Position numbers and translations under genes: made by a program
In this document: positions 1,615 to 14,217 of the stretch, one piece after another
Layout: each line of letters opens with the position of its first letter
How positions within the stretch are numbered: position 1 is the first letter of the stretch
The notes under the pieces: model-generated
The model's input: the letters and a program-made list of their open reading frames with translations, nothing else
What the model was told of the DNA's origin: nothing
The model's database searches: none
Assembly: GCA_913031305.1 (NCBI GenBank)
Contig: CAJWEF010000004.1
Span: forward strand, 1-39,913
Origin: an uncultured Acidiferrobacteraceae bacterium
Lineage (GTDB): Bacteria; Pseudomonadota; Gammaproteobacteria; Arenicellales; UBA868
Direction: 5' to 3'
DNA length: 39,913 nucleotides

Positions 1615-2961
1615 TCATCCCAGCACTGCTACCGTTGCTTCGGCCAGAATCTCAGCAATCTGATCCAGTGTCTGCTCATCGGTGACAATGGGTGGCGCTA
1701 TGCAATAGGCATCCCCGCGAACTCGTGAAAACATTCCACGCTCGACAGTTTCTGCATGAATTCGCGGCCCAACTGCATCGCTTGGTGCAAAAGGTTCCTT
1801 GGTTCCCTTGTCTTTTACGTACTCCACCGCGCACATCAAACCCAATCCGCGGACCTCGCCCACATGCGGGTGATCGGCCAGGGCGTCTTTCAACTTGACC
1901 AGAAGGCGTTGACCTTTCTGCCGGGCCTGATCGACAAAATTCTCCTTCTCAATGATATCCAACATTGCCAGAGCGACTGCGCAACCGACAGGATGGGAAC
2001 TATAGGTATAAGCGTGCATCCATGGTGATCCGCTCTCATTCATTACCGTGGCTATCTCGTCGCTGATACCAATACCGCCCAGCGGGAAATACCCTGAAGT
2101 GACCGCCTTGGCAAACTGCATAAGATCCGGCTCGACTCCCCAGTGCTCCAGCCCGAACATACGGCCGGTGCGGCCAAAACCAGTGATAACCTCATCGGAC
2201 ACCAGCAGCACATCGTATTCGTCGCATATCTGGCGAATACGAGGGAAGTAATCATCCTGCGGTACGAGCACACCACCAGCGCCCTGGACCGGCTCTGCAA
2301 TAAACATCGCTACTGTTTCGGGACCTTCTTCGAGAATCTTCTTTTCCAGTTCGTTGGCAGCGGCTATACCCTGGCTCGGGGCATCATCGGGCGCCTGATA
2401 CAAGTAAGGGTACGGACTGGGAATATGGACGAATCCTGGAATTCTCGGTTCAAACATTTCCCAATACGGCGCAATCCCGGTCGCACACATCGCGGCAAAA
2501 GTAACACCATGGTATCCCCAGATACGCGAAATCACCTTGGTTTTCTCAGGCTTACCTTTAAGTTTCCAGTAGTAACGCGCCAGTTTGATGTTGCTATCGG
2601 TTGCCTCCCCGCCACCGGAGGTGAGGTAAAAATGATTAATATTCGGGTAGGTGAGGCTCGCCAGACGTTCCGCTAATTCAATAGCTCTCGGGTTGGTGCT
2701 GCCGACATAGCCAGAGGCAAACCCCATTTGCCGCATCTGACCCGCTGCTGCGTCAGCAAGCTCAGTGCGGCCGTTGCCCGCGGTATTGCACCAAAGGCCT
2801 GACAGGCAATCGATAAAACGATTGCCGTCCGCATCCACGAGATAAGCGCCTTCACCACCCACCCAAACCCGGGCTGATGCGTGAGCGGCGGGATTATGCA
2901 AAGGATGGACCAGGTGTGCCGCATCTCGGCTGACCATGGCTTGCTGTTTCTGTGCAGTCAT
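1615..2961 (-). CDS. class III aminotransferase, probably beta-alanine / 3-aminoisobutyrate:pyruvate transaminase
   Basis: This is a PLP-dependent omega-aminotransferase of 448 residues. The Schiff-base lysine is K285 in FAKAVTSGYFPLGG, the pyridine-nitrogen aspartate is D256 in LLVSDEVITGFGRTG, and the phosphate-binding segment is TSGGGEATDSNIKLAR (114-129). Class III enzymes of this length include beta-alanine:pyruvate, taurine:pyruvate and other omega-amine transaminases. Its position as last gene of a reductive pyrimidine operon argues for beta-alanine (from uracil) or 3-aminoisobutyrate (from thymine) as substrate, giving malonate or methylmalonate semialdehyde. This is inference from context. 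The ATG is preceded by GGAGG five bases upstream, and the gene follows preA by 62 bases. No semialdehyde dehydrogenase is visible in the window. Confidence 0.88.
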   Translation of the reverse strand: MTAQKQQAMVSRDAAHLVHPLHNPAAHASARVWVGGEGAYLVDADGNRFIDCLSGLWCNTAGNGRTELADAAAGQMRQMGFASGYVGSTNPRAIELAERLASLTYPNINHFYLTSGGGEATDSNIKLARYYWKLKGKPEKTKVISRIWGYHGVTFAAMCATGIAPYWEMFEPRIPGFVHIPSPYPYLYQAPDDAPSQGIAAANELEKKILEEGPETVAMFIAEPVQGAGGVLVPQDDYFPRIRQICDEYDVLLVSDEVITGFGRTGRMFGLEHWGVEPDLMQFAKAVTSGYFPLGGIGISDEIATVMNESGSPWMHAYTYSSHPVGCAVALAMLDIIEKENFVDQARQKGQRLLVKLKDALADHPHVGEVRGLGLMCAVEYVKDKGTKEPFAPSDAVGPRIHAETVERGMFSRVRGDAYCIAPPIVTDEQTLDQIAEILAEATVAVLG

Positions 2962-3023: not shown

Positions 3024-4334
3024 TTATTTCCCGGGGGTCGCCATTGGATTATTGGGATGAGCCGTCCAGTTGATCTTGTCATCTGAGCGGATCATCTGGT
3101 TTGTTCTTTGGTCAACTTCATTGTCTAGAGTTCTCAACGTCAGACAATTTTCTACCGGACATACTGTCACACACAGATTGCAGCCTACACATTCTTTTTC
3201 TATTACCTCGTAGTGACGGCTCCCATTCCGGGCTGCGCTGATTGCCTGATGCGAGGCATCTTCGCAGGCTATATGGCAACGCCCACACTGAATACAAAGA
3301 TCCTGGTCGATCTGCGCCTTGGCGGTGTAGTTCAGATTAAGGTATTGCCAGTCTGTGAGTGAAGGCACCGCTTTGCCGATCGCCTGCTCAACTGACTCTA
3401 TCTGACGAGCGTCAAGATAACGGGTCAAGCCATCGACCATATCATCGATGATCTTAAAGCCGTGGGTCATTGCAGCGGTACAAACCTGCACATTCCCAGC
3501 CCCTAGTAGAATAAATTCGGCAGCATCGCGCCAGTTACTGATACCGCCTATCGCCGAAATCGGCAAACCCGCACAATCGGGATCACGGGCAAGATCCGAG
3601 ACCATGTGCAACGCAATCGGTTTGACTGCCGGCCCACAATAGCCGCCATGGGTTCCATTGTGATCTATGGTTGGCACGACGCTGAAGGAATCCAAATCAA
3701 CCGACATCACAGAATTGATGGTATTGATCAACGATACCGCGTCTGCCCCCCCTTTTTTCGCAGCGCGGGCAGACTGGCGGATACTGGCCACATTGGGTGT
3801 CAGTTTTACAATCACGGGAAGTTCAGAAAAATCCTTGCACCATGCGGTAACCATCTCGACATACTCGGGGACCTGCCCTACGGCAGCGCCCATACCCCTC
3901 TCGGACATGCCGTGAGGACAACCAAAGTTAAGTTCAACACCATCAGCGCCGGTATCCGCAACCCGGGTTAGAACCGTCTTCCAGGCTTCCTCAGTGCAGG
4001 GCACCATGAGAGAGACAACCAGGCCTCGATCCGGCCAGTCTTTTTTGACTTGTGTAATCTCCTTGAGATTGAGCTGCAACGGGCGATCAGTAATCAGTTC
4101 AATATTGTTAAAACCAATGACACTGCGATCCTTTCCATGTAATGCCGCGTAACGTGGTCCGTTGACATTAACGATAGGCGGGCCATCTTCACCCAGGGTT
4201 TTCCAGACGACGCCACCCCACCCCGCCTCAAAGGCGCGATTCACGTTATAGGCTTTGTCGGTCGGTGGTGCGGATGCCAGCCAGAACGGATTCGGCGACT
4301 CGATACCAACAAAAGTGGTTTTCAGCTCAGGCAT
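3024..4334 (-). CDS. preA: NAD-dependent dihydropyrimidine dehydrogenase, catalytic/Fe-S subunit PreA (PydA)
   Basis: This 436-residue FMN enzyme has a dihydroorotate dehydrogenase-like TIM barrel (about 5-310) and a C-terminal ferredoxin domain. Two 4Fe-4S motifs are visible: C347-x2-C350-x2-C353-x3-C357 and C382-x2-C385-x2-C388-x3-C392. The substrate loop reads NFGCPHGMSERGMGAAVGQ (136-154), close to the mammalian enzyme's loop. It should reduce uracil and thymine to their 5,6-dihydro forms with electrons from PreT. At the position of the mammalian catalytic loop cysteine (in GLACGQ) this protein appears to have V152; from memory E. coli PreA also has a valine there. The ATG has GGAGGG upstream. 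The gene lies 30 bases after preT, so the two subunits are surely co-transcribed. Confidence 0.95.
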   Translation of the reverse strand: MPELKTTFVGIESPNPFWLASAPPTDKAYNVNRAFEAGWGGVVWKTLGEDGPPIVNVNGPRYAALHGKDRSVIGFNNIELITDRPLQLNLKEITQVKKDWPDRGLVVSLMVPCTEEAWKTVLTRVADTGADGVELNFGCPHGMSERGMGAAVGQVPEYVEMVTAWCKDFSELPVIVKLTPNVASIRQSARAAKKGGADAVSLINTINSVMSVDLDSFSVVPTIDHNGTHGGYCGPAVKPIALHMVSDLARDPDCAGLPISAIGGISNWRDAAEFILLGAGNVQVCTAAMTHGFKIIDDMVDGLTRYLDARQIESVEQAIGKAVPSLTDWQYLNLNYTAKAQIDQDLCIQCGRCHIACEDASHQAISAARNGSRHYEVIEKECVGCNLCVTVCPVENCLTLRTLDNEVDQRTNQMIRSDDKINWTAHPNNPMATPGK

Positions 4335-4364
4335 TGTTCCCTCCTTACTTCCATTGAACAGGCA

Positions 4365-5735
4365 TCAGGACTCACCTGCCTCGCTTTTTGACAGGAATTG
4401 ATCAATAGAGATTGCGGCTAGTTTACCGTCCTGTACTGCACTGACTGTCAGATCTTCGCCACCCGCTATGCAATCCCCGCCGGCCCAGACACCGGCCCGG
4501 GAAGTCCGTCGCTCTTTATCGACAATAAACCGGCCACCTTCCAGTATGAAGTCCGCCGGATCACCGTCGAGTGACTGGGGCATCTGGCCGATCGCCTTAA
4601 ACACCATATCTGCCGCAATCGAAAAACTGTCGGCCTCATCGGAGTGTAAAGTCCTGTCGGTTGGGCTGAACTCAACGCCGGTAACCCTGCCGTCTGTATG
4701 CTGAACACAGGTCGGCTGCCCCCAGAACCGTATTGCCACCCCGCGAATTTTGGCGAACTCCTGTTCCTCAATACTGGCCTTCATCTGCTGTGGACCACGC
4801 CGATACACCATTGTCACCTCTTCCGCGCCCAACAACCGCGCTTGAACTGCAATGTCGATTGCGGTCATTCCACCACCAATTACTACAATGCGCTTGCCGA
4901 GGGCCAGCGACGACAACTGATCTGCCTGACGAAGCCTGCTGATAAAATCCACTGCGTCCTCAACCCCAGGAAGTTCTTCGCCGGGTATACCCAGCATCCT
5001 GGTTAAACCCAGCCCCACTGAAAGAAAGACAGCGTCATGGCGACCTTCGATATCGGCTAGGTGAACATCACAGCCAAATAACTTCCCGTGTTGTATCTCG
5101 ATTCCACCAATCGATGTAATAAATTGGACCTCCCTCTGGGCGAAGTTATCCAGCATCTTGTAGGCCGCGAGCCCGTACTCATTCAAACCCCCGGATTTAG
5201 GGCGATCCTCATAGATGCACGCCGAATGCCCAAGCACCGCGAGCCTGTGGGCGCAAGCCAGGCCCGCCGGACCGGCGCCAACCACAGCAACGGACTTTTC
5301 CGACGGTGCAGCGCGGATAAAGAACGAAGCATTCTGGTCCATAGCCTCATCAACGGCATAACGCTGCAGCAGGCCTATGGTCACGGGTCGATCATCTGCC
5401 TGGTTACGTACGCATGCATGCTCGCACAGAGTCTCAACCGGGCAGGCTCTGGCGCAAGTACCACCCATAATATTCTCTTGCAATATAAGGCCCGCCGCAC
5501 CCACAGGATTGTGATTACCAATCATGCGGATAAAACCGGGAATATCTATTTCCGTCGGACAAGCTTGCGTGCAAGGTGCATCGAAGCAGAAATAACACCG
5601 CTCGGCCTCGACCCGCGCGCCGTTAGGTTCCAGGGGTGAATGGATTTCACAAAAATTGCGCCGACAATCCTCCTCAGGCAGTCGGCCAGACACAACTCCG
5701 GACGCCCCATTGGTCACGGTTGCAATAATATCCAC
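4365..5735 (-). CDS. preT: NAD-dependent dihydropyrimidine dehydrogenase, FAD/NAD(P) subunit PreT (PydX)
   Basis: This is the electron-input subunit of bacterial dihydropyrimidine dehydrogenase, related to the glutamate synthase small subunit. An N-terminal Fe-S region holds cysteines C47, C50, C55, C59 and C94, C98, C104, C108. The FAD-binding fingerprint VVGAGPAGLA is at 151-160 and a second dinucleotide site IVVIGGGMTAID starts near 283. At 456 residues it is somewhat longer than E. coli PreT (about 410), mostly at the N-terminus. The start codon is GTG at 5735, supported by a strong AAGGAGG 6-7 bases upstream. It follows the dihydropyrimidinase gene after a 92-base gap that contains a strong hairpin, and precedes preA by 30 bases. 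It passes electrons from a nicotinamide cofactor to PreA. Confidence 0.94.
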   Translation of the reverse strand: MDIIATVTNGASGVVSGRLPEEDCRRNFCEIHSPLEPNGARVEAERCYFCFDAPCTQACPTEIDIPGFIRMIGNHNPVGAAGLILQENIMGGTCARACPVETLCEHACVRNQADDRPVTIGLLQRYAVDEAMDQNASFFIRAAPSEKSVAVVGAGPAGLACAHRLAVLGHSACIYEDRPKSGGLNEYGLAAYKMLDNFAQREVQFITSIGGIEIQHGKLFGCDVHLADIEGRHDAVFLSVGLGLTRMLGIPGEELPGVEDAVDFISRLRQADQLSSLALGKRIVVIGGGMTAIDIAVQARLLGAEEVTMVYRRGPQQMKASIEEQEFAKIRGVAIRFWGQPTCVQHTDGRVTGVEFSPTDRTLHSDEADSFSIAADMVFKAIGQMPQSLDGDPADFILEGGRFIVDKERRTSRAGVWAGGDCIAGGEDLTVSAVQDGKLAAISIDQFLSKSEAGES

Positions 5736-5827: not shown

Positions 5828-7285
<1,458 letters not shown>

Positions 7286-7302: not shown

Positions 7303-8289
7303 CTAAAACGCCGCGTCCCAAATTGCATGACTCCAGGCTCCCGAAGGCGCCTTGGAAATCACAGGATCAGAACCACCGCTCATCAAAGTTGCAACGGTAC
7401 GCTCATAGTCGACCTCATCCAATTTGCCGCCACCTGCAGTGAGTTTGTTGATTTCACCCATCATGCGGCGCTGGTGATTTTCGGTCTGAGCTCCGGTTTC
7501 GTCATTTTCAAGCACGATGTCAGCAGCCGCATCCGAATTCTCTCTTGCCCAGGCCCAACCCTTCATCGACGCGCGCACAAAACGAGCCATTTTGTCGACA
7601 AACGCTGGGTCAGCCAGATTCTTTTCAAGGACATAGAGTCCATCTTCCAGTGTCGCAACGCCCTGATCTTCATATTTGAAGGTCACCAGTTCGTCTGACC
7701 CCAAGCCGGCATCAATGATCTGCCAGTACTCGTTGTAAGTCATGGTTGAGACGCAGTCCGCCTGCTTTTGCAGAATCGGGTCAACATTAAACCCTTGCTT
7801 AAGCACCGTCACGCCGCCACTGCTGCCATCAGTTGGAATATTTAGCCGTCCCATCCAGCTCAGGAAGGGGTACTCATTCCCATAAAACCAAACACCCAAA
7901 GTACGGCCTGGAAAATCCTGTGGCGTCTTTACGCCGCTATCCTTGCGGCAAGTCAGCATCATCCCGGACCGTTTGAAAGGCTGGGCAATATTCACCAATG
8001 GCAAGCCTTTTTCCCGTGAAGCCAACGCTGACGGCATCCAATCGATAATGACATCTGCACCGCCACCCGCAATCACCTGCGGCGGAGCCACGTCAGGCCC
8101 ACCTGGTTTGATCGTCACGTCGAGATTTTCATCCTTATAAAAGCCCTTATCTTTCGCGACAAAATACCCTGCGAACTGGGCCTGGGTAACCCACTTCAAC
8201 TGCAAGGTCACCTGGTCAGCTGCGACTGCGGACATGCTGACCAACCCTAAAGCTAGAGCCGCTACAAGGGTGCTAATTTTTCTTTTCAT
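7303..8289 (-). CDS. ABC transporter substrate-binding protein, NMT1/THI5-like (pyrimidine import suggested)
   Basis: A 328-residue secreted protein with a clear Sec signal peptide (MKRK, a hydrophobic core, cleavage after AVA near residue 23). The mature N-terminus VTLQLKWVTQAQFAGYFVAKDKGFY is typical of the NMT1/THI5-like family, which binds pyrimidine moieties such as thiamine precursors and also riboflavin, nitrate or sulfonates. The operon places it with two permeases, an ATPase and pyrimidine catabolic enzymes, so uracil, thymine or a hydantoin/dihydropyrimidine is the likely ligand. That is inference; the ligand residues cannot be read directly. The ATG has AAGGAG eight bases upstream. 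Confidence 0.88.
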   Translation of the reverse strand: MKRKISTLVAALALGLVSMSAVAADQVTLQLKWVTQAQFAGYFVAKDKGFYKDENLDVTIKPGGPDVAPPQVIAGGGADVIIDWMPSALASREKGLPLVNIAQPFKRSGMMLTCRKDSGVKTPQDFPGRTLGVWFYGNEYPFLSWMGRLNIPTDGSSGGVTVLKQGFNVDPILQKQADCVSTMTYNEYWQIIDAGLGSDELVTFKYEDQGVATLEDGLYVLEKNLADPAFVDKMARFVRASMKGWAWARENSDAAADIVLENDETGAQTENHQRRMMGEINKLTAGGGKLDEVDYERTVATLMSGGSDPVISKAPSGAWSHAIWDAAF

Positions 8290-8324: not shown

Positions 8325-9476
8325 TTACAGGCGTTTTGCGGACAGTTGACGAAAAGACGGATGCCAGAAGGTTGCCCGTCTTTCCACAACAGCCAGTAAA
8401 CCATAAAACAAGGACCCAGACACCGCTGATAGCGCTATCGATGCCCAGACCATCTCCATGTTCATTCTGCCAGCCTCAGTCGAGATACGAAACCCAATGC
8501 CGACAATTGGGGTACCAAAAAATTCAGCCACGATCGCGCCAATCAAAGCCAGTGCCGAGTTTATTTTAAGCGCGTTAAAAATGAACGGTAGCGCATTGGG
8601 CAATCGCACCCGGGTAAACGTTTGCCAGTGACTCGCACCGATGGAGCGCATCAGATCAAGTTCTATTGCGCTCGATCCACCAAGTCCTGCAACCGTATTT
8701 ACCAGCATTGGGAAAAAAGTCATGATGACAACCACTGCCGCCTTGGACTGCCAGTCAAATCCAAACCACATGACCATGATCGGGGCAATACCGACAATAG
8801 GAATTGCACTGACCAGATTTCCAACAGGCAACAAACCGCGACGCAAAAATGGCACCCGATCTGCCCATAACGCAATTGCGAACCCCGCAAGATTGCCCAT
8901 CACAAACCCTGGAAGCACTGCTCGAATTATCGTCTGGCGGAAGTCTGCCGCAAGCACGCCGAGCGACGAGGCGATTGCCTCTCCTACCAGGCTGGGGGGA
9001 GGTAAGAGTACCCGGGGGATGCCCAGTCCAACGGTAATAAGCTCCCATAGTACGATCAGCCAGACTCCAAAAAGACCCGGTACAAGAAATTGATACAGGA
9101 ACGCGCCGATTCCCGGGTTTAAAGTGATGGCGGCAAACCGACTCATAGTGGCCCAAATGGCAAAAGCCAGGGCAATGACAAAACACCAGTAGCCGCCGCT
9201 GGCCTGCCCGATGATGGATTCCGCGTGGGCGAGGCTAACTACCACCCACAGAGCCGCCAGCACAAACGCCAACGAGATAGTACGGCTGGTTGATGAGCAC
9301 TTTGTCGTCAGACCAGACACGCTCAAGGCGCCGGCTACGCAACCCAGACCCGCGAGTCCTATAGGCATATGGCCCCACGCCACAGTCGGACTCAATTCCC
9401 CAAATAATCCGAGCACAATGAAAAGTCCGCCCGCCAATGAGGTGTTACTGATTCGAGTGCTTGAAAAAAGATTCAC
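8325..9476 (-). CDS. ABC transporter permease with N-terminal membrane extension
   Basis: The C-terminal about 260 residues form a normal BPD-type permease (TauC/SsuC/ThiX-like), with the cytoplasmic EAA-type loop around GASHWQTFTRVRLPNALPF. The protein has 383 residues, about 100-130 more than typical family members. The extra N-terminal part contains several hydrophobic segments (about 15-35, 38-55, 66-85, 92-112) before the conserved core. It starts with GTG at 9476, overlapping the preceding permease stop in a GTGA junction, so the two genes are translationally coupled. With the partner permease it forms the channel of the operon's importer. Confidence 0.88.
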   Translation of the reverse strand: MNLFSSTRISNTSLAGGLFIVLGLFGELSPTVAWGHMPIGLAGLGCVAGALSVSGLTTKCSSTSRTISLAFVLAALWVVVSLAHAESIIGQASGGYWCFVIALAFAIWATMSRFAAITLNPGIGAFLYQFLVPGLFGVWLIVLWELITVGLGIPRVLLPPPSLVGEAIASSLGVLAADFRQTIIRAVLPGFVMGNLAGFAIALWADRVPFLRRGLLPVGNLVSAIPIVGIAPIMVMWFGFDWQSKAAVVVIMTFFPMLVNTVAGLGGSSAIELDLMRSIGASHWQTFTRVRLPNALPFIFNALKINSALALIGAIVAEFFGTPIVGIGFRISTEAGRMNMEMVWASIALSAVSGSLFYGLLAVVERRATFWHPSFRQLSAKRL

Positions 9477-10369
9477 GAGCGCGCTACCTGGCCACCATCG
9501 AGTCGACGCAACATGGTCCGCTCACCCAGAGCTACGATAGATACCAGCGTAGCTGAGACGACAGAAGCGGTGATCAACGCTGCCCAGATCATAGTGGTCT
9601 GGCCATAATACGAGCCTGTGAGCAGGCGCGCGCCGAGACCACCCTGACCCCCCGTGGGTAGCTCAGCAACAATAGCGCCCACGATACTCAATGCAATTGC
9701 CACCTTAAGAGACGCGAACAGAAATGGGATCGATGAGGGCAGACGCAACCTGAAAAAAACCTGTGCACGGCTCGCATAATAAGTATGCATCTGGTCCAAA
9801 AGCATGGGTTCAGGCGAGCGCAGTCCCTTTACCATTCCCACCACGACCGGGAAAAAGCAAAGGTACATCGAGATAACCGACTTAGGGAAAAGACCGGTAA
9901 TACCGACAGAACCCAGCACCACAATAATCATTGGTGCCAACGCAAGGATCGGCACCGTTTGTGATGCAATGATCCACGGCATCAGACTTCGATCCAAGGT
10001 TGTCACATAAACGATTCCAATCGCCAGTCCAATGCCCAGCACCGTACCCAGAACGAACCCGAGCAGTGCCGATGACAGGGTCACACCCGCGTGATAGATC
10101 AAGCTTCGCTTGGAAGTGACTTTCTGATCCAAGACGGTCTTTTTGAGCTCGCGGACAACCTGGTGAGGCGCGGGTAATACGGGTCGCTTCATGCTCCAGG
10201 CATCTGCGGCCAACTGGGTGATATCCCACTGGACGCTGCGTTTGTTGTAGCGATCGATCAACTGGCCACTGTTGAGGTACACCGCGCCGGCATACCAGAT
10301 AACCGTCAGGACAACGATAACTACCGACAGCGGAAAAATCCGCCCCTGACTATGGGTCGCGTCATTCAT
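9473..10369 (-). CDS. ABC transporter permease (second subunit)
   Basis: A BPD-type permease of 298 residues from the ATG at 10369. The frame stays open upstream to 10480, but that extension would lie almost wholly inside the ATPase gene. The chosen ATG overlaps the ATPase stop by 8 bases, a normal coupled junction. Several membrane helices and the EAA-type loop (SRAQVFFRLRLPSSIPFLF) are visible. A long periplasmic or linker segment (about 30-75) follows the first helix. It probably pairs with the other permease as a heterodimer served by the single ATPase. Confidence 0.87.
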   Translation of the reverse strand: MNDATHSQGRIFPLSVVIVVLTVIWYAGAVYLNSGQLIDRYNKRSVQWDITQLAADAWSMKRPVLPAPHQVVRELKKTVLDQKVTSKRSLIYHAGVTLSSALLGFVLGTVLGIGLAIGIVYVTTLDRSLMPWIIASQTVPILALAPMIIVVLGSVGITGLFPKSVISMYLCFFPVVVGMVKGLRSPEPMLLDQMHTYYASRAQVFFRLRLPSSIPFLFASLKVAIALSIVGAIVAELPTGGQGGLGARLLTGSYYGQTTMIWAALITASVVSATLVSIVALGERTMLRRLDGGQVARS

Positions 10370-11165
10370 CGTCGTAACTATGGCCCGCCTTGAGGCCTTG
10401 TCGAACTCGATGCGCCAGAGAAAGAAAATCGGGGGTCTCACGTATATCAAGCGTTCGCTCGGAGGGCAAATTGCATTCAATCACATCCATCACCCGCCCA
10501 GGCCTGGGGGACATAACCACGACCCGGCTCGAAAGGAATACCGCCTCGGGAATGGAGTGGGTAACAAAGACTACTGTCTTGCGCGTCTTGCGCCACAATT
10601 CAAGAAGCTGCTCGTTGAGGTGATCCCGTGTAATTTCGTCAAGCGCCCCAAACGGCTCATCCATTAACAACAACTGCGGCTCAACACTTAATGCCCGCGC
10701 AATGGAGACGCGCTGCTGCATTCCCCCGGATAATTGCCAGGGGTATTTATTCTCAAAACCACTGAGGTTAACAAGATCAAGATATTTCTTCGCTCGCGTT
10801 TGCTGCTGAGAGCGAGTCAATCCCATGATCTCAAGGGGCAGTACGACATTCTTTGTGACAGTTCGCCAGGGGTAAAGTGCGGGAGCCTGAAACACATAGC
10901 CATAGGAGCGATCCTGGCGGGCCTGATCCGGGCTCACGCCGTTCACAAGAATCTTTCCACTGGAATGCTTCTCCAGGTCAGCAATCACCCTCAGCAAGGT
11001 CGTCTTGCCGCAGCCAGATGGGCCAATCAATGATACGAATTCACCTTCTCTAATCGCTAGATCAATGCCACTAAGCGCATGCACCGGTCCATCGACAGTA
11101 TCGAAGTCCAGGGACAACTGGTCAATTTGAACCACGGTGTCAGAAGATGATGCGTTATCGCTCAA
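10362..11165 (-). CDS. ABC transporter ATP-binding protein (nitrate/sulfonate/pyrimidine type)
   Basis: A 267-residue ATPase with Walker A GPSGCGKTT (48-56), Q-loop in GYVFQAPALYPW (89-100), signature LSGGMQQRVSIARAL (145-159), Walker B LLLMDEPFGALD (165-176) and an H-loop in FVTHSIPEAVFL. It resembles the SsuB/TauB/ThiZ group that energises importers with NMT1-type binding proteins. The start is TTG at 11165, the only plausible start with a strong AAGGAG upstream. It sits 28 bases after the M20 hydrolase gene and overlaps the following permease by 8 bases. Confidence 0.92.
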   Translation of the reverse strand: MSDNASSSDTVVQIDQLSLDFDTVDGPVHALSGIDLAIREGEFVSLIGPSGCGKTTLLRVIADLEKHSSGKILVNGVSPDQARQDRSYGYVFQAPALYPWRTVTKNVVLPLEIMGLTRSQQQTRAKKYLDLVNLSGFENKYPWQLSGGMQQRVSIARALSVEPQLLLMDEPFGALDEITRDHLNEQLLELWRKTRKTVVFVTHSIPEAVFLSSRVVVMSPRPGRVMDVIECNLPSERTLDIRETPDFLSLAHRVRQGLKAGHSYDDE

Positions 11166-11193: not shown

Positions 11194-12435
11194 TCAAAGA
11201 CTTTCAGCCTTTGTCAAAACAGCCTGGAGCATGACATTGGCGCCGGCTGTCGACCATTCAGGTTCGATATCTTCTACTTCGTTATGACTAATACCGTCAA
11301 CGCAGGGGATAAAAATCATCGATGTCGGTGCCGCGTGTGCAATAAAACAAGCGTCATGCCCAGCCCCAGCGACAATCTGGCGCGAACTGTAGCCACAAGT
11401 TTCGGCACCGGACTGAACTGCTGCGACACAACCACTATCAAAGGGGACCGGGGCGTAATAAAAAATCTCCTCAAGCGAGTGTGCTACGCCGGCTTGGTCA
11501 GAAATTCTGGTGACGCCATCACCGATGGCCTTGCCCATCTCCAGCAAGACGGTATCATCGGGATGCCGAATATCTATGGTCAAAAAGACCCGTCCTGGGA
11601 TAACGTTACGCGAATTGGGGTGCACGTTGAGCATGCCCACCGTGGCACAAGCGAGTGGCGCATAGGTCAAGCCAATTTCATTCACCAGGCAGGTGATCCG
11701 TGCAGCACACAGTAATGCATCATGGCGCCGGTCCATTGGCGTTGGCCCCGCATGCGATTCCATGCCGGTCAGTTCAAGTTCATACCAGCGCTGGCCTTGA
11801 GCATCGGTAACCACGCCAATGTTAGTGCCTTCTTCAACCAGTATCGGACCCTGTTCGATATGGGCTTCAAAATAGGCGTGCAGTGGACGCCCCATGGGCT
11901 CATCTCCCGCGTAACCGATGCGTTCGAGTTCCTGCCCCATGGTTCGGCCCTCGGTATCCGCTCGCGCCAGGCCGTAGTCGAGGTCATAGATTCCCGCGAA
12001 CACGCCGGACGCCACCATTGCAGGTGCAAAACGGCTGCCTTCCTCGTTGGTCCAGCAGACCGCTTCCACTGGGTGGCGCGTCTGGATATTTTGATCATTA
12101 AGGGCGCGTATAACCTCCAGGCCGGTTAAAACGCCGTAAACCCCATCAAAACGACCTCCGGTAGGCTGGGTATCAAGATGACTGCCAACCACAACCGACG
12201 GTAACTGTGGGTCGGCGCCGTCGCGGCGGGCAAAAATATTTCCCATCTGATCAACAGATATTGTGCAACCGGCCTCGCGACACCAATTCACGAAAAGATC
12301 GCGGGCCTGTCGATCAAGGTCGGTCAGAGCAAGTCGGCAACAACCCCCTTTTTCGGTTGCCCCAATTTTTGCCATCTCCATCAGCGAGTCCCACAAGCGC
12401 TCACCGTTAATCGCCAAAGCATCGTCGCGTGTCAT
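11194..12435 (-). CDS. hyuC: M20-family Zn-dependent carbamoyl-amide hydrolase (HyuC / allantoate amidohydrolase-like)
   Basis: This metal-dependent amidase hydrolyses N-carbamoyl amino acids, beta-ureidopropionate or allantoate in characterised relatives. Visible motifs are VVVGSHLDTQPTGGRFDGVYG with metal ligands H86 and D97, E131/E132 in WTNEEGSRFAPA, H192 in AHIEQGP, and a C-terminal GISHNEVE histidine. From the ATG at 12435 it has 413 residues, the family norm. A GTG 33 bases upstream is also in frame, but AGGGAAGA lies at the right distance from the 12435 ATG. It is the second enzyme in the operon able to act on N-carbamoyl-beta-alanine, beside the nitrilase-family gene just upstream. 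One may handle another ureido compound. Confidence 0.87.
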   Translation of the reverse strand: MTRDDALAINGERLWDSLMEMAKIGATEKGGCCRLALTDLDRQARDLFVNWCREAGCTISVDQMGNIFARRDGADPQLPSVVVGSHLDTQPTGGRFDGVYGVLTGLEVIRALNDQNIQTRHPVEAVCWTNEEGSRFAPAMVASGVFAGIYDLDYGLARADTEGRTMGQELERIGYAGDEPMGRPLHAYFEAHIEQGPILVEEGTNIGVVTDAQGQRWYELELTGMESHAGPTPMDRRHDALLCAARITCLVNEIGLTYAPLACATVGMLNVHPNSRNVIPGRVFLTIDIRHPDDTVLLEMGKAIGDGVTRISDQAGVAHSLEEIFYYAPVPFDSGCVAAVQSGAETCGYSSRQIVAGAGHDACFIAHAAPTSMIFIPCVDGISHNEVEDIEPEWSTAGANVMLQAVLTKAESL

Positions 12436-12496
12436 TGGTTTTTCTTCCCTGTCAGTCTTCACCAACACTCATGATTAATAGTTATCCCTTACTCGC

Positions 12497-13363
12497 CTAA
12501 TTCAGATCGGTCAGAACACCGTAAGTTTCAGGCCGGCGGTCACGGTAGAACTGCCAGGTATCTCTGACCTCGCGAACCATGTCCATATCGACCTCGTGGA
12601 TCAGAAGCTCATCTTGATCGGCGCTGGCCTGCGCTTCGATCTGACCACGCGGATTGACGAAATAACTCGAGCCGTAAAACTCCCCGATATTCCAGGGGGC
12701 CTCAGTTCCCACTCGATTAATTGCCGCAATAAAAACGCCGTTAGCAGCTGCTGAAGCTGGTTGTTCAAGTTCCCACAAGTACTGCGACAGCCCAGCCACT
12801 GTTGCGGATGGGTTGTAGATGATTTCAGCCCCGTTTAATGCCAAGGCGCGCCAACCCTCAGGAAAATGGCGGTCGTAACAGATATAAACGCCGATTTTGC
12901 CGTAGGCCGTATTAAAAACCGGCCAGCCCGAGGCTCCAGGCTTGAAGAAGAATTTCTCCCAGAAGCCGGCAACATGAGGTAGATGGCTCTTGCGATATTT
13001 ACCCATGTAACTGCCATCGGCATCGATTACCGCAGCCGTGTTGTAGTACACCCCAGTCATGGCTTCTTCATAAATCGGCACAATGATGACCATGTTGTAC
13101 TTCTTGGCGTATTCGCGCATCAGACGGATTGTGTGGCCATCTGGGATCGCCTCTGCCGCAGCATACCAACGGGCATCCTGGCTCGGGCAAAAATAGGGTT
13201 GGGTAAACACTTCCTGAAAACAAAGTACCTGGACACCGGCTGCGCCCGCCTGGTCAATGAACGGGATGTGCGCTTCTAACATCGCATCACGAATCTCCTC
13301 GGGAGACCAATCCGTGCTCGCCTTCAAACTCATCTGGATGAGTCCGGATTTCAGTTTACTCAT
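12497..13363 (-). CDS. beta-ureidopropionase / N-carbamoyl amidase, nitrilase superfamily
   Basis: The carbon-nitrogen hydrolase triad is complete: E51 (FQEVFTQPYF), K125 (GKYRKSHLPH) and C162 (VYICYDRHFPEGWRAL), counted from the ATG at 13363. The protein has 288 residues. The close match around CYDRHFPEGWR and SHLPHV fits the beta-ureidopropionase / N-carbamoylputrescine amidase branch. With dihydropyrimidinase in the operon, the expected reaction is N-carbamoyl-beta-alanine to beta-alanine, CO2 and NH3. A GTG two codons upstream is in frame, but AAGGGGG is placed for the ATG. It is the first gene of the catabolic operon, downstream of a RutR-like operator. Confidence 0.9.
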   Translation of the reverse strand: MSKLKSGLIQMSLKASTDWSPEEIRDAMLEAHIPFIDQAGAAGVQVLCFQEVFTQPYFCPSQDARWYAAAEAIPDGHTIRLMREYAKKYNMVIIVPIYEEAMTGVYYNTAAVIDADGSYMGKYRKSHLPHVAGFWEKFFFKPGASGWPVFNTAYGKIGVYICYDRHFPEGWRALALNGAEIIYNPSATVAGLSQYLWELEQPASAAANGVFIAAINRVGTEAPWNIGEFYGSSYFVNPRGQIEAQASADQDELLIHEVDMDMVREVRDTWQFYRDRRPETYGVLTDLN

Positions 13364-13460
13364 GTGCACCCCCTTGTGATGTGATTGGCATGTTGTTTTT
13401 GGGATTGATATCGCCGCTTGGCAAAGAACTGGAAATCGACCAGATTCGGCCTTCCCGATG

Positions 13461-13489
13461 CTTGTAACAGTTCTTTACCATTTGGTCAA
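13461..13489 (-). promoter_or_regulatory. candidate promoter of the pyrimidine degradation operon
   Basis: On the minus strand TTGACC (13489-13484) is followed, after 17 bases, by TACAAG (13466-13461), a four-of-six match to a -10 box. The -35 element is inside the RutR-like operator. The leader to the first gene would be about 90 bases. The assignment rests on consensus and spacing only. Confidence 0.45.
13474..13489. promoter_or_regulatory. RutR-like operator upstream of the pyrimidine operon
   Basis: TTTACCATTTGGTCAA matches the E. coli RutR consensus TTGACCAnnTGGTCAA at all but one fixed position. It lies between the regulator's stop codon (13491) and the first catabolic gene, 111 bases before the start at 13363. 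Its minus-strand half TTGACC can also serve as a -35 box (13489-13484), so a bound repressor would occlude RNA polymerase. It is the second such site within 750 bases. Confidence 0.75.
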
Positions 13490-13490
13490 T

Positions 13491-14177
13491 TTATCGCAAA
13501 GGCTGCTTCTTACTTGACAGGCCCAATCCACGAACCAGTGCCGCGGTGACGCCTGGCGCGCCTTTTTCATACACCTCAGCATCGTAATCTGCCGGCGAGA
13601 TCACAGCTTCGATCTGGGCTTGAAAATCCGCATAGGTCTGGGTCACTGCCCAGATCATAAAGAAAGCATGTGCAGGGTCTATCGGAGCCATCCGGCCCTC
13701 TTGCTGCCAAGCGTGAAAGATAGCGCCTTTTTGTGCCACCCAGTCCCGCAAGCGTCCCCTCAGATGCTCCCCAATCACCGGCGCTCCACCGATAATCTCG
13801 ATCGCAAAAAGGCGTGAAGCTTCAGGATAATGCCTGGACAGATCTAGTTTGCGGCGAATGTACTTGCTTATTGCATCACACGGATCATCATCTGCCGAGA
13901 TATCTCCCAGCGCTTCCAGCCACAGTGACAGCACTTGCTCGATAACGACCCGATACAGGTTCTTCTTGGTCTTGTAGTAATAAAGGACATTGCCTTTGGG
14001 CAAACCGGCACGCTGTGCAATCTCTTCTACACGCGCGCCGTCGTAGCCCTTCTGGGAAAACACACCGGTCGCGGCGCGGATGATCTTCTCTCGCTGGCGA
14101 AAACCAACGCTTTGGGGTTCGGTGCCTGAGACTTCAGATGGTGGAGTCGTTTTCTCTATCTGACTGATGCGGGCCAT
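13491..14177 (-). CDS. rutR: TetR-family regulator, RutR-like (uracil/thymine-responsive)
   Basis: A 228-residue TetR repressor with an N-terminal helix-turn-helix domain (about 28-75, KIIRAATGVFSQKGYDGARVEEIAQRAG) followed by LPKGNVLYYYKTKKNLY. The C-terminal domain closely recalls E. coli RutR, for example RKLDLSRHYPEASRLFAIEI, a GGAPVIGEHLRGRL segment and MIWAVTQTYADFQAQIEAV. RutR binds uracil and thymine and controls pyrimidine use. Here it sits at the head of a reductive pyrimidine pathway instead of the oxidative Rut operon, with matching operators before itself and the operon. The N-terminal 25 residues are an unstructured extension compared with E. coli. Orthology is inferred from remembered sequence features. 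Confidence 0.88.
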   Translation of the reverse strand: MARISQIEKTTPPSEVSGTEPQSVGFRQREKIIRAATGVFSQKGYDGARVEEIAQRAGLPKGNVLYYYKTKKNLYRVVIEQVLSLWLEALGDISADDDPCDAISKYIRRKLDLSRHYPEASRLFAIEIIGGAPVIGEHLRGRLRDWVAQKGAIFHAWQQEGRMAPIDPAHAFFMIWAVTQTYADFQAQIEAVISPADYDAEVYEKGAPGVTAALVRGLGLSSKKQPLR

Positions 14178-14187
14178 AAGGCGATCG

Positions 14188-14217
14188 ATTGTGGCTCACT
14201 TTTGACCGAATGGTCAA
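14188..14217 (-). promoter_or_regulatory. candidate rutR promoter overlapping the operator
   Basis: Minus-strand TTGACC (14217-14212) with an 18-base spacer to CACAAT (14193-14188) forms a sigma70-like promoter whose -35 box is part of the palindrome. The -10 box ends only 10 bases before the ATG, so the transcript would have a very short leader. Evidence is consensus and spacing only. Confidence 0.35.
14202..14217. promoter_or_regulatory. RutR-like operator upstream of the regulator gene
   Basis: TTGACCGAATGGTCAA contains both half-sites, TTGACC and GGTCAA, in the palindromic spacing of the RutR consensus TTGACCAnnTGGTCAA, with only the seventh position differing. It lies 25-40 bases upstream of the regulator ATG, between it and the end of the EamA transporter gene. 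This predicts autoregulation. Confidence 0.8.

Follow-up and report, generated by a model that had tools for sequence, protein, structure and literature searches.

Predicted RutR-type operators at a reductive pyrimidine catabolism locus of an uncultured gammaproteobacterium

Introduction

The RutR protein of E. coli recognizes a 16-bp palindrome and controls both its own gene and the catabolic operon of the rutR/rutA-G region, that is, the Rut (oxidative ring-opening) pathway, in addition to carAB (PMC10891134). In P. putida, PydR, a RutR-like TetR regulator, was described as repressing the gene for dihydropyrimidine dehydrogenase (Hidese et al. 2012, by its title as cited in PMC7332683), and it is assigned to the reductive pathway of pyrimidine breakdown. 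Leyn et al. 2016 (PMC5343134) comparatively predicted RutR regulons for pyrimidine catabolism in 68 proteobacterial genomes, with taxon-specific substitutions in the motif. RutR-type control of the reductive pathway is already known in principle, from P. putida PydR and the RutR regulogs.

The locus described here resembles the E. coli system in its 16-bp palindromes, in the predicted autoregulation combined with control of a catabolic operon, and in the residues of the uracil pocket (PMC10891134). E. coli RutR governs the Rut pathway and carAB; in the genome studied here RutA is missing, and the operon encodes the reductive route. The likeness to P. putida PydR is drawn from its description. 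Since PydR already controls the reductive pathway in P. putida, the wiring is not new in kind; a known logic, that of a RutR-type repressor on the reductive pathway, is extended to gammaproteobacteria of a lineage represented in this analysis by metagenome-assembled genomes alone, and operators are predicted at the level of individual letters. This lineage, of the Arenicellales/Acidiferrobacteraceae type, was probably not among the genomes of Leyn et al. (PMC5343134), and a literature search found no paper combining RutR and beta-ureidopropionase.

Results and discussion

A reductive pyrimidine operon beside a RutR-like gene

The window, meaning the whole stretch of 39,913 nucleotides that was analyzed, carries a regulator gene and a pyrimidine operon, both on the minus strand, which encode the following products:

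13491..14177, minus strand: RutR/PydR-like TetR-family regulator, 228 aa (Pfam TetR_C_3, E 6.7e-46, and TetR_N; E. coli RutR 3loc, E 2.7e-49)
12497..13363, minus strand: carbon-nitrogen hydrolase, candidate beta-ureidopropionase (PF00795, E 1e-63)
11194..12468, minus strand: M20 hydantoinase/carbamoylase family amidase, second candidate beta-ureidopropionase (TIGR01879, 418 bits, cut-off 204)
10362..11165, minus strand: ABC importer ATPase (PF00005)
9473..10480, minus strand: ABC importer permease (PF00528)
8325..9476, minus strand: ABC importer permease (PF00528)
7303..8289, minus strand: ABC importer substrate-binding protein, NMT1/THI5-like (PF09084, E 6.6e-37)
5828..7267, minus strand: dihydropyrimidinase (TIGR02033, 605.7 bits, cut-off 393)
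4365..5735, minus strand: PreT-like NAD(P)H/FAD subunit of dihydropyrimidine dehydrogenase (Fer4_20 and Pyr_redox_2)
3024..4334, minus strand: PreA, dihydropyrimidine dehydrogenase subunit (NF006183, 694.5 bits, cut-off 335)
1615..2961, minus strand: class-III omega-aminotransferase, probable beta-alanine transaminase (PF00202; NF005682, 483 bits)

The start of the carbon-nitrogen hydrolase was moved from the GTG at 13369, given in the list of open reading frames, to the ATG at 13363, because this ATG and its ribosome-binding site are preserved in relatives. Dihydropyrimidine dehydrogenase, dihydropyrimidinase and the beta-ureidopropionase candidates, which define the reductive (Pyd) pathway, all lie in one operon, for which we infer a single transcript. 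No protein of the genome reached the RutA cut-off (best 45 bits, versus 498), and no linkage to a Rut operon was detected. The locus therefore has the reductive, non-Rut pathway with an importer that was originally predicted, as PreTA, dihydropyrimidinase, carbamoyl-hydrolases and an ABC importer were all found. Judged by its gene content, the operon would cover the route from uracil to beta-alanine and the next transamination, together with a putative pyrimidine importer.

The two adjacent candidate beta-ureidopropionases (window 11194-13363) are unrelated to each other and were kept together throughout the genus.

Two palindromes overlap candidate -35 boxes

One RutR-like palindrome had been predicted before the regulator gene and another before the operon, each overlapping a candidate -35 box. 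Both sites, designated O1 and O2, were recovered at these places together with two predicted promoters:

14202..14217, minus strand: predicted autoregulatory operator O1, TTGACCATTCGGTCAA on the minus strand, one mismatch to the consensus
13474..13489, minus strand: predicted operon operator O2, TTGACCAAATGGTAAA on the minus strand, one mismatch to the consensus
14188..14217, minus strand: rutR promoter, TTGACC, 18-nt spacer, CACAAT (promoter scan)
13461..13489, minus strand: candidate operon promoter, TTGACC, 17-nt spacer, TACAAG, with TG ahead of it (sequence reading)

O2 reads TTTACCATTTGGTCAA and O1 reads TTGACCGAATGGTCAA, each with a single mismatch to TTGACCAnnTGGTCAA over its 14 fixed positions. 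The end of O1 lies 24 bp upstream of the ATG (14177) of the RutR-like gene, and O2 starts one base past the regulator stop codon, 110 bp upstream of the first ATG of the operon (13363). A -35-like TTGACC is overlapped by both sites, and O1 contains the -35 box and most of the spacer of the rutR promoter, which is sigma-70-like. The operon promoter at O2 was not called by the promoter scan, which demands a T at position 6 of the -10 hexamer; the AAGAACTGTTACAAGC block that follows O2 is preserved in relatives.

O1 and O2 are very probably the operators of a RutR/PydR-like repressor that is encoded between them and released by uracil or thymine, and that would block access to the -35 region at two promoters. 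Without pyrimidine, a dimer would sit on each of these -35 regions, keeping its own gene low from O1 and the operon for reductive catabolism and import low from O2. Uracil or thymine would enter the C-terminal pocket and the dimer would leave the DNA, upon which the importer, PreTA, dihydropyrimidinase, the carbamoyl-hydrolases and the aminotransferase would be made; together they would convert uracil to beta-alanine, with release of carbon dioxide and ammonia, and go on to malonate semialdehyde. Binding, repression instead of activation, and the uracil/thymine effector are proposed by analogy with E. coli RutR and P. putida PydR. The originally proposed repressor gains support from the fact that the regulator is the sole RutR-type protein in the genome, from the conservation of the operators and from their recurrence in other families.

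In the genus loci, the -10 hexamer of the rutR promoter (window 14177-14193) ends about 9-12 nt before the ATG and a ribosome-binding site is lacking, which probably leaves the regulator mRNA with little or no leader.

A 13-bp inverted repeat (TGGTAAAGAACTG and CAGTTCTTTGCCA; window 13410-13480) lies on both sides of the predicted operon start, and is weaker in close relatives. An attenuator between O2 and the first operon gene was considered for this repeat and rejected, as it overlaps the promoter and is lost in the genome G101, and as shuffled sequences fold just as well as this segment (z -0.64).

The effector pocket and the affinities of the regulator

Both the TetR_N and the TetR_C_3 (YcdC-like) domains are present in the regulator, whose closest solved relative is E. 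coli RutR, with 42% identity over 199 residues, close enough to settle its fold and pocket. Its scores fall below the cut-offs of the NCBIfam RutR equivalogs TIGR03613 (207 bits versus 368) and NF011584 (191 versus 230), and hence it is properly called "RutR-like" or "PydR-like". The alignment of the effector pocket with E. coli RutR, proposed with the original prediction as a check, showed that all five uracil-contact residues (W77, Y97, W167, Q171 and Q179) are identical; K52 and K62 are also retained (roles of the E. coli residues from PMC10891134). The five pocket positions were nearly invariant in the relatives compared, with one L for W77 and several F for Y97.

Regulators adjoining allantoicase, urate oxidase and adenosine deaminase genes also preserve these pocket residues, so the ligand is not proved by them, and pocket conservation was discarded as a proof of uracil sensing. 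The same near-invariance across the family, purine-linked regulators included, would fit a protein that binds both sites and answers to a different nucleobase or a pathway intermediate (dihydrouracil, N-carbamoyl-beta-alanine or xanthine) instead of uracil or thymine. We consider this unlikely, given that the gene content is pyrimidine-specific and that the tree puts the regulator with E. coli RutR, not with the purine-linked group. In that tree, the window clade, E. coli RutR, and rut-linked and pyd-linked regulators were separated from a group with the purine-linked ones (97/95). Some pyd-linked regulators (G052 and G027) were placed in the purine-containing group, and linkage to the reductive pathway thus seems to have arisen more than once. 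Uracil or thymine is retained as the proposed effector.

Conservation of the operators within and beyond the genus

An O1-anchored comparison was performed for 14 genus loci, with regulators 60-93% identical to that of the window. The 16 bases of O1 showed 96.6% mean pairwise identity, compared with 30.6% over the 55 upstream bases from -60 to -6 and about 50% just downstream; O1 was letter-identical in 10 of the loci, and the remaining four differed at one base. Besides the operator, the only conserved blocks in its vicinity were a short AAAG directly ahead of it and CAnAAT, the latter invariant at the 18-nt spacing from TTGACC (n = 14/14).

O2 was preserved with its own TTGACC-17-TACAAG in four genomes (G100, G101, G106 and G107). 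One or two mismatches separate it from its counterparts in G096 and G076, the latter a genome of another family. O2 was missing in half of the genus, where the operon is without dihydropyrimidinase (L055, L056, L061 and L063-L065, wherever the contig reaches that far), and no degenerate O2 was found in this half when sought by eye. Most of these O2-less genomes have a more distant dihydropyrimidinase elsewhere (45% identical, one 71%), and their operon presumably depends on the O1 promoter.

Two genomes carry a damaged rutR. The gene is interrupted in G101 (L054) by an early stop and a frame break, next to a degraded O1; G100 (L097, remnant 4312-4482) lacks most of the gene, with O1 either degraded or lost. 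Both retain an intact O2 and operon and, on their sequences, are candidate constitutive lineages. Reading frame and operator were lost at the same place, which argues for real decay rather than assembly error, although error is possible in metagenome-assembled genomes. A tentative reading, which we regard as possible but not as the likelier outcome, is that operator layout follows operon content, with O2 confined to genomes whose operon includes dihydropyrimidinase and lacking from those that encode the enzyme elsewhere, and that the repressor decays in at least two lineages with operon and O2 intact, giving a series from two-operator through single-operator to constitutive pyrimidine use. The genus would in that case preserve naturally occurring stages in the loss of regulator and operators.

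G277 (L119) and G412 (L120) belong to other families of the class, and their regulators are 34-40% identical to that of the window. In both, the RutR-like gene lies amid the same importer, dihydropyrimidinase, M20 and PreTA genes. A consensus-perfect TTGACCATATGGTCAA was found in G277, 93 bp before PreT, together with CTGACCAAATGGTCAA between rutR and the M20-dihydropyrimidinase-importer operon, and a consensus-perfect TTGACCATCTGGTCAA precedes rutR in G412. This recurrence is the strongest evidence for linking box, regulator and reductive pathway.

Two of the above facts cut against O2 as an operator, namely its absence in half of the genus and its persistence in G100 and G101 despite a broken or deleted rutR. 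Both would fit an O2 that is a conserved promoter only, whose TTGACC and neighbors happen to resemble an operator, with read-through from the O1 promoter as the sole control of the operon; part of the conservation of O2 may indeed reflect the promoter that it overlaps. However, the second half-site (TGGTAAA, TGGTTAG) is unneeded for a promoter, yet it is preserved in G076; perfect sites stand before PreT in relatives from other families; and, of the genome sites examined, O2 and just one other fall outside reading frames. This explanation is accordingly very unlikely, and O2 is kept as the predicted operator of the operon.

Distribution of the RutR box in the genome

The original prediction would have lost its basis if the same palindromes were scattered at chance frequency over the genome. 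A scan of the 2.77 Mb assembly (295 contigs, 91% complete), with a reversed-pattern control as the chance level, found background elsewhere and a strong local concentration at rutR. The pattern occurred at four places with at most one mismatch and at 16 with at most two. Among the 15 of these 16 sites that were examined, only O1 and O2 fell outside a long reading frame; the others (13 of 14 examined) were all inside reading frames of at least 150 codons, including the other two one-mismatch sites, one within murE and one within the gene of an FCD-type regulator. For this reason no further target is proposed, and a wider regulon was rejected.

Over 20 genus genomes, 41 sites with at most one mismatch were counted versus 46 for the reversed control, without overall enrichment; 15 of the 41 fell in the ~1-kb rutR region, where about 0.01-0.02 were expected. 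That both palindromes are chance matches, as the missing genome-wide enrichment might suggest, has a negligible probability and is already refuted by the conservation data, in view of this local concentration, of O1 standing out from its diverged flanks, and of the recurrence in other families.

Other genomes of the same order (L068, L069, L070 and L074) carry RutR-like genes that have purine genes as neighbors (allantoicase, urate oxidase, adenosine deaminase and a PnrA-like importer). Near-consensus RutR boxes were observed in L068 (1509-1524) and in L074 (1868-1916), the latter with two boxes about 33 bp apart ahead of an importer operon that contains the regulator.
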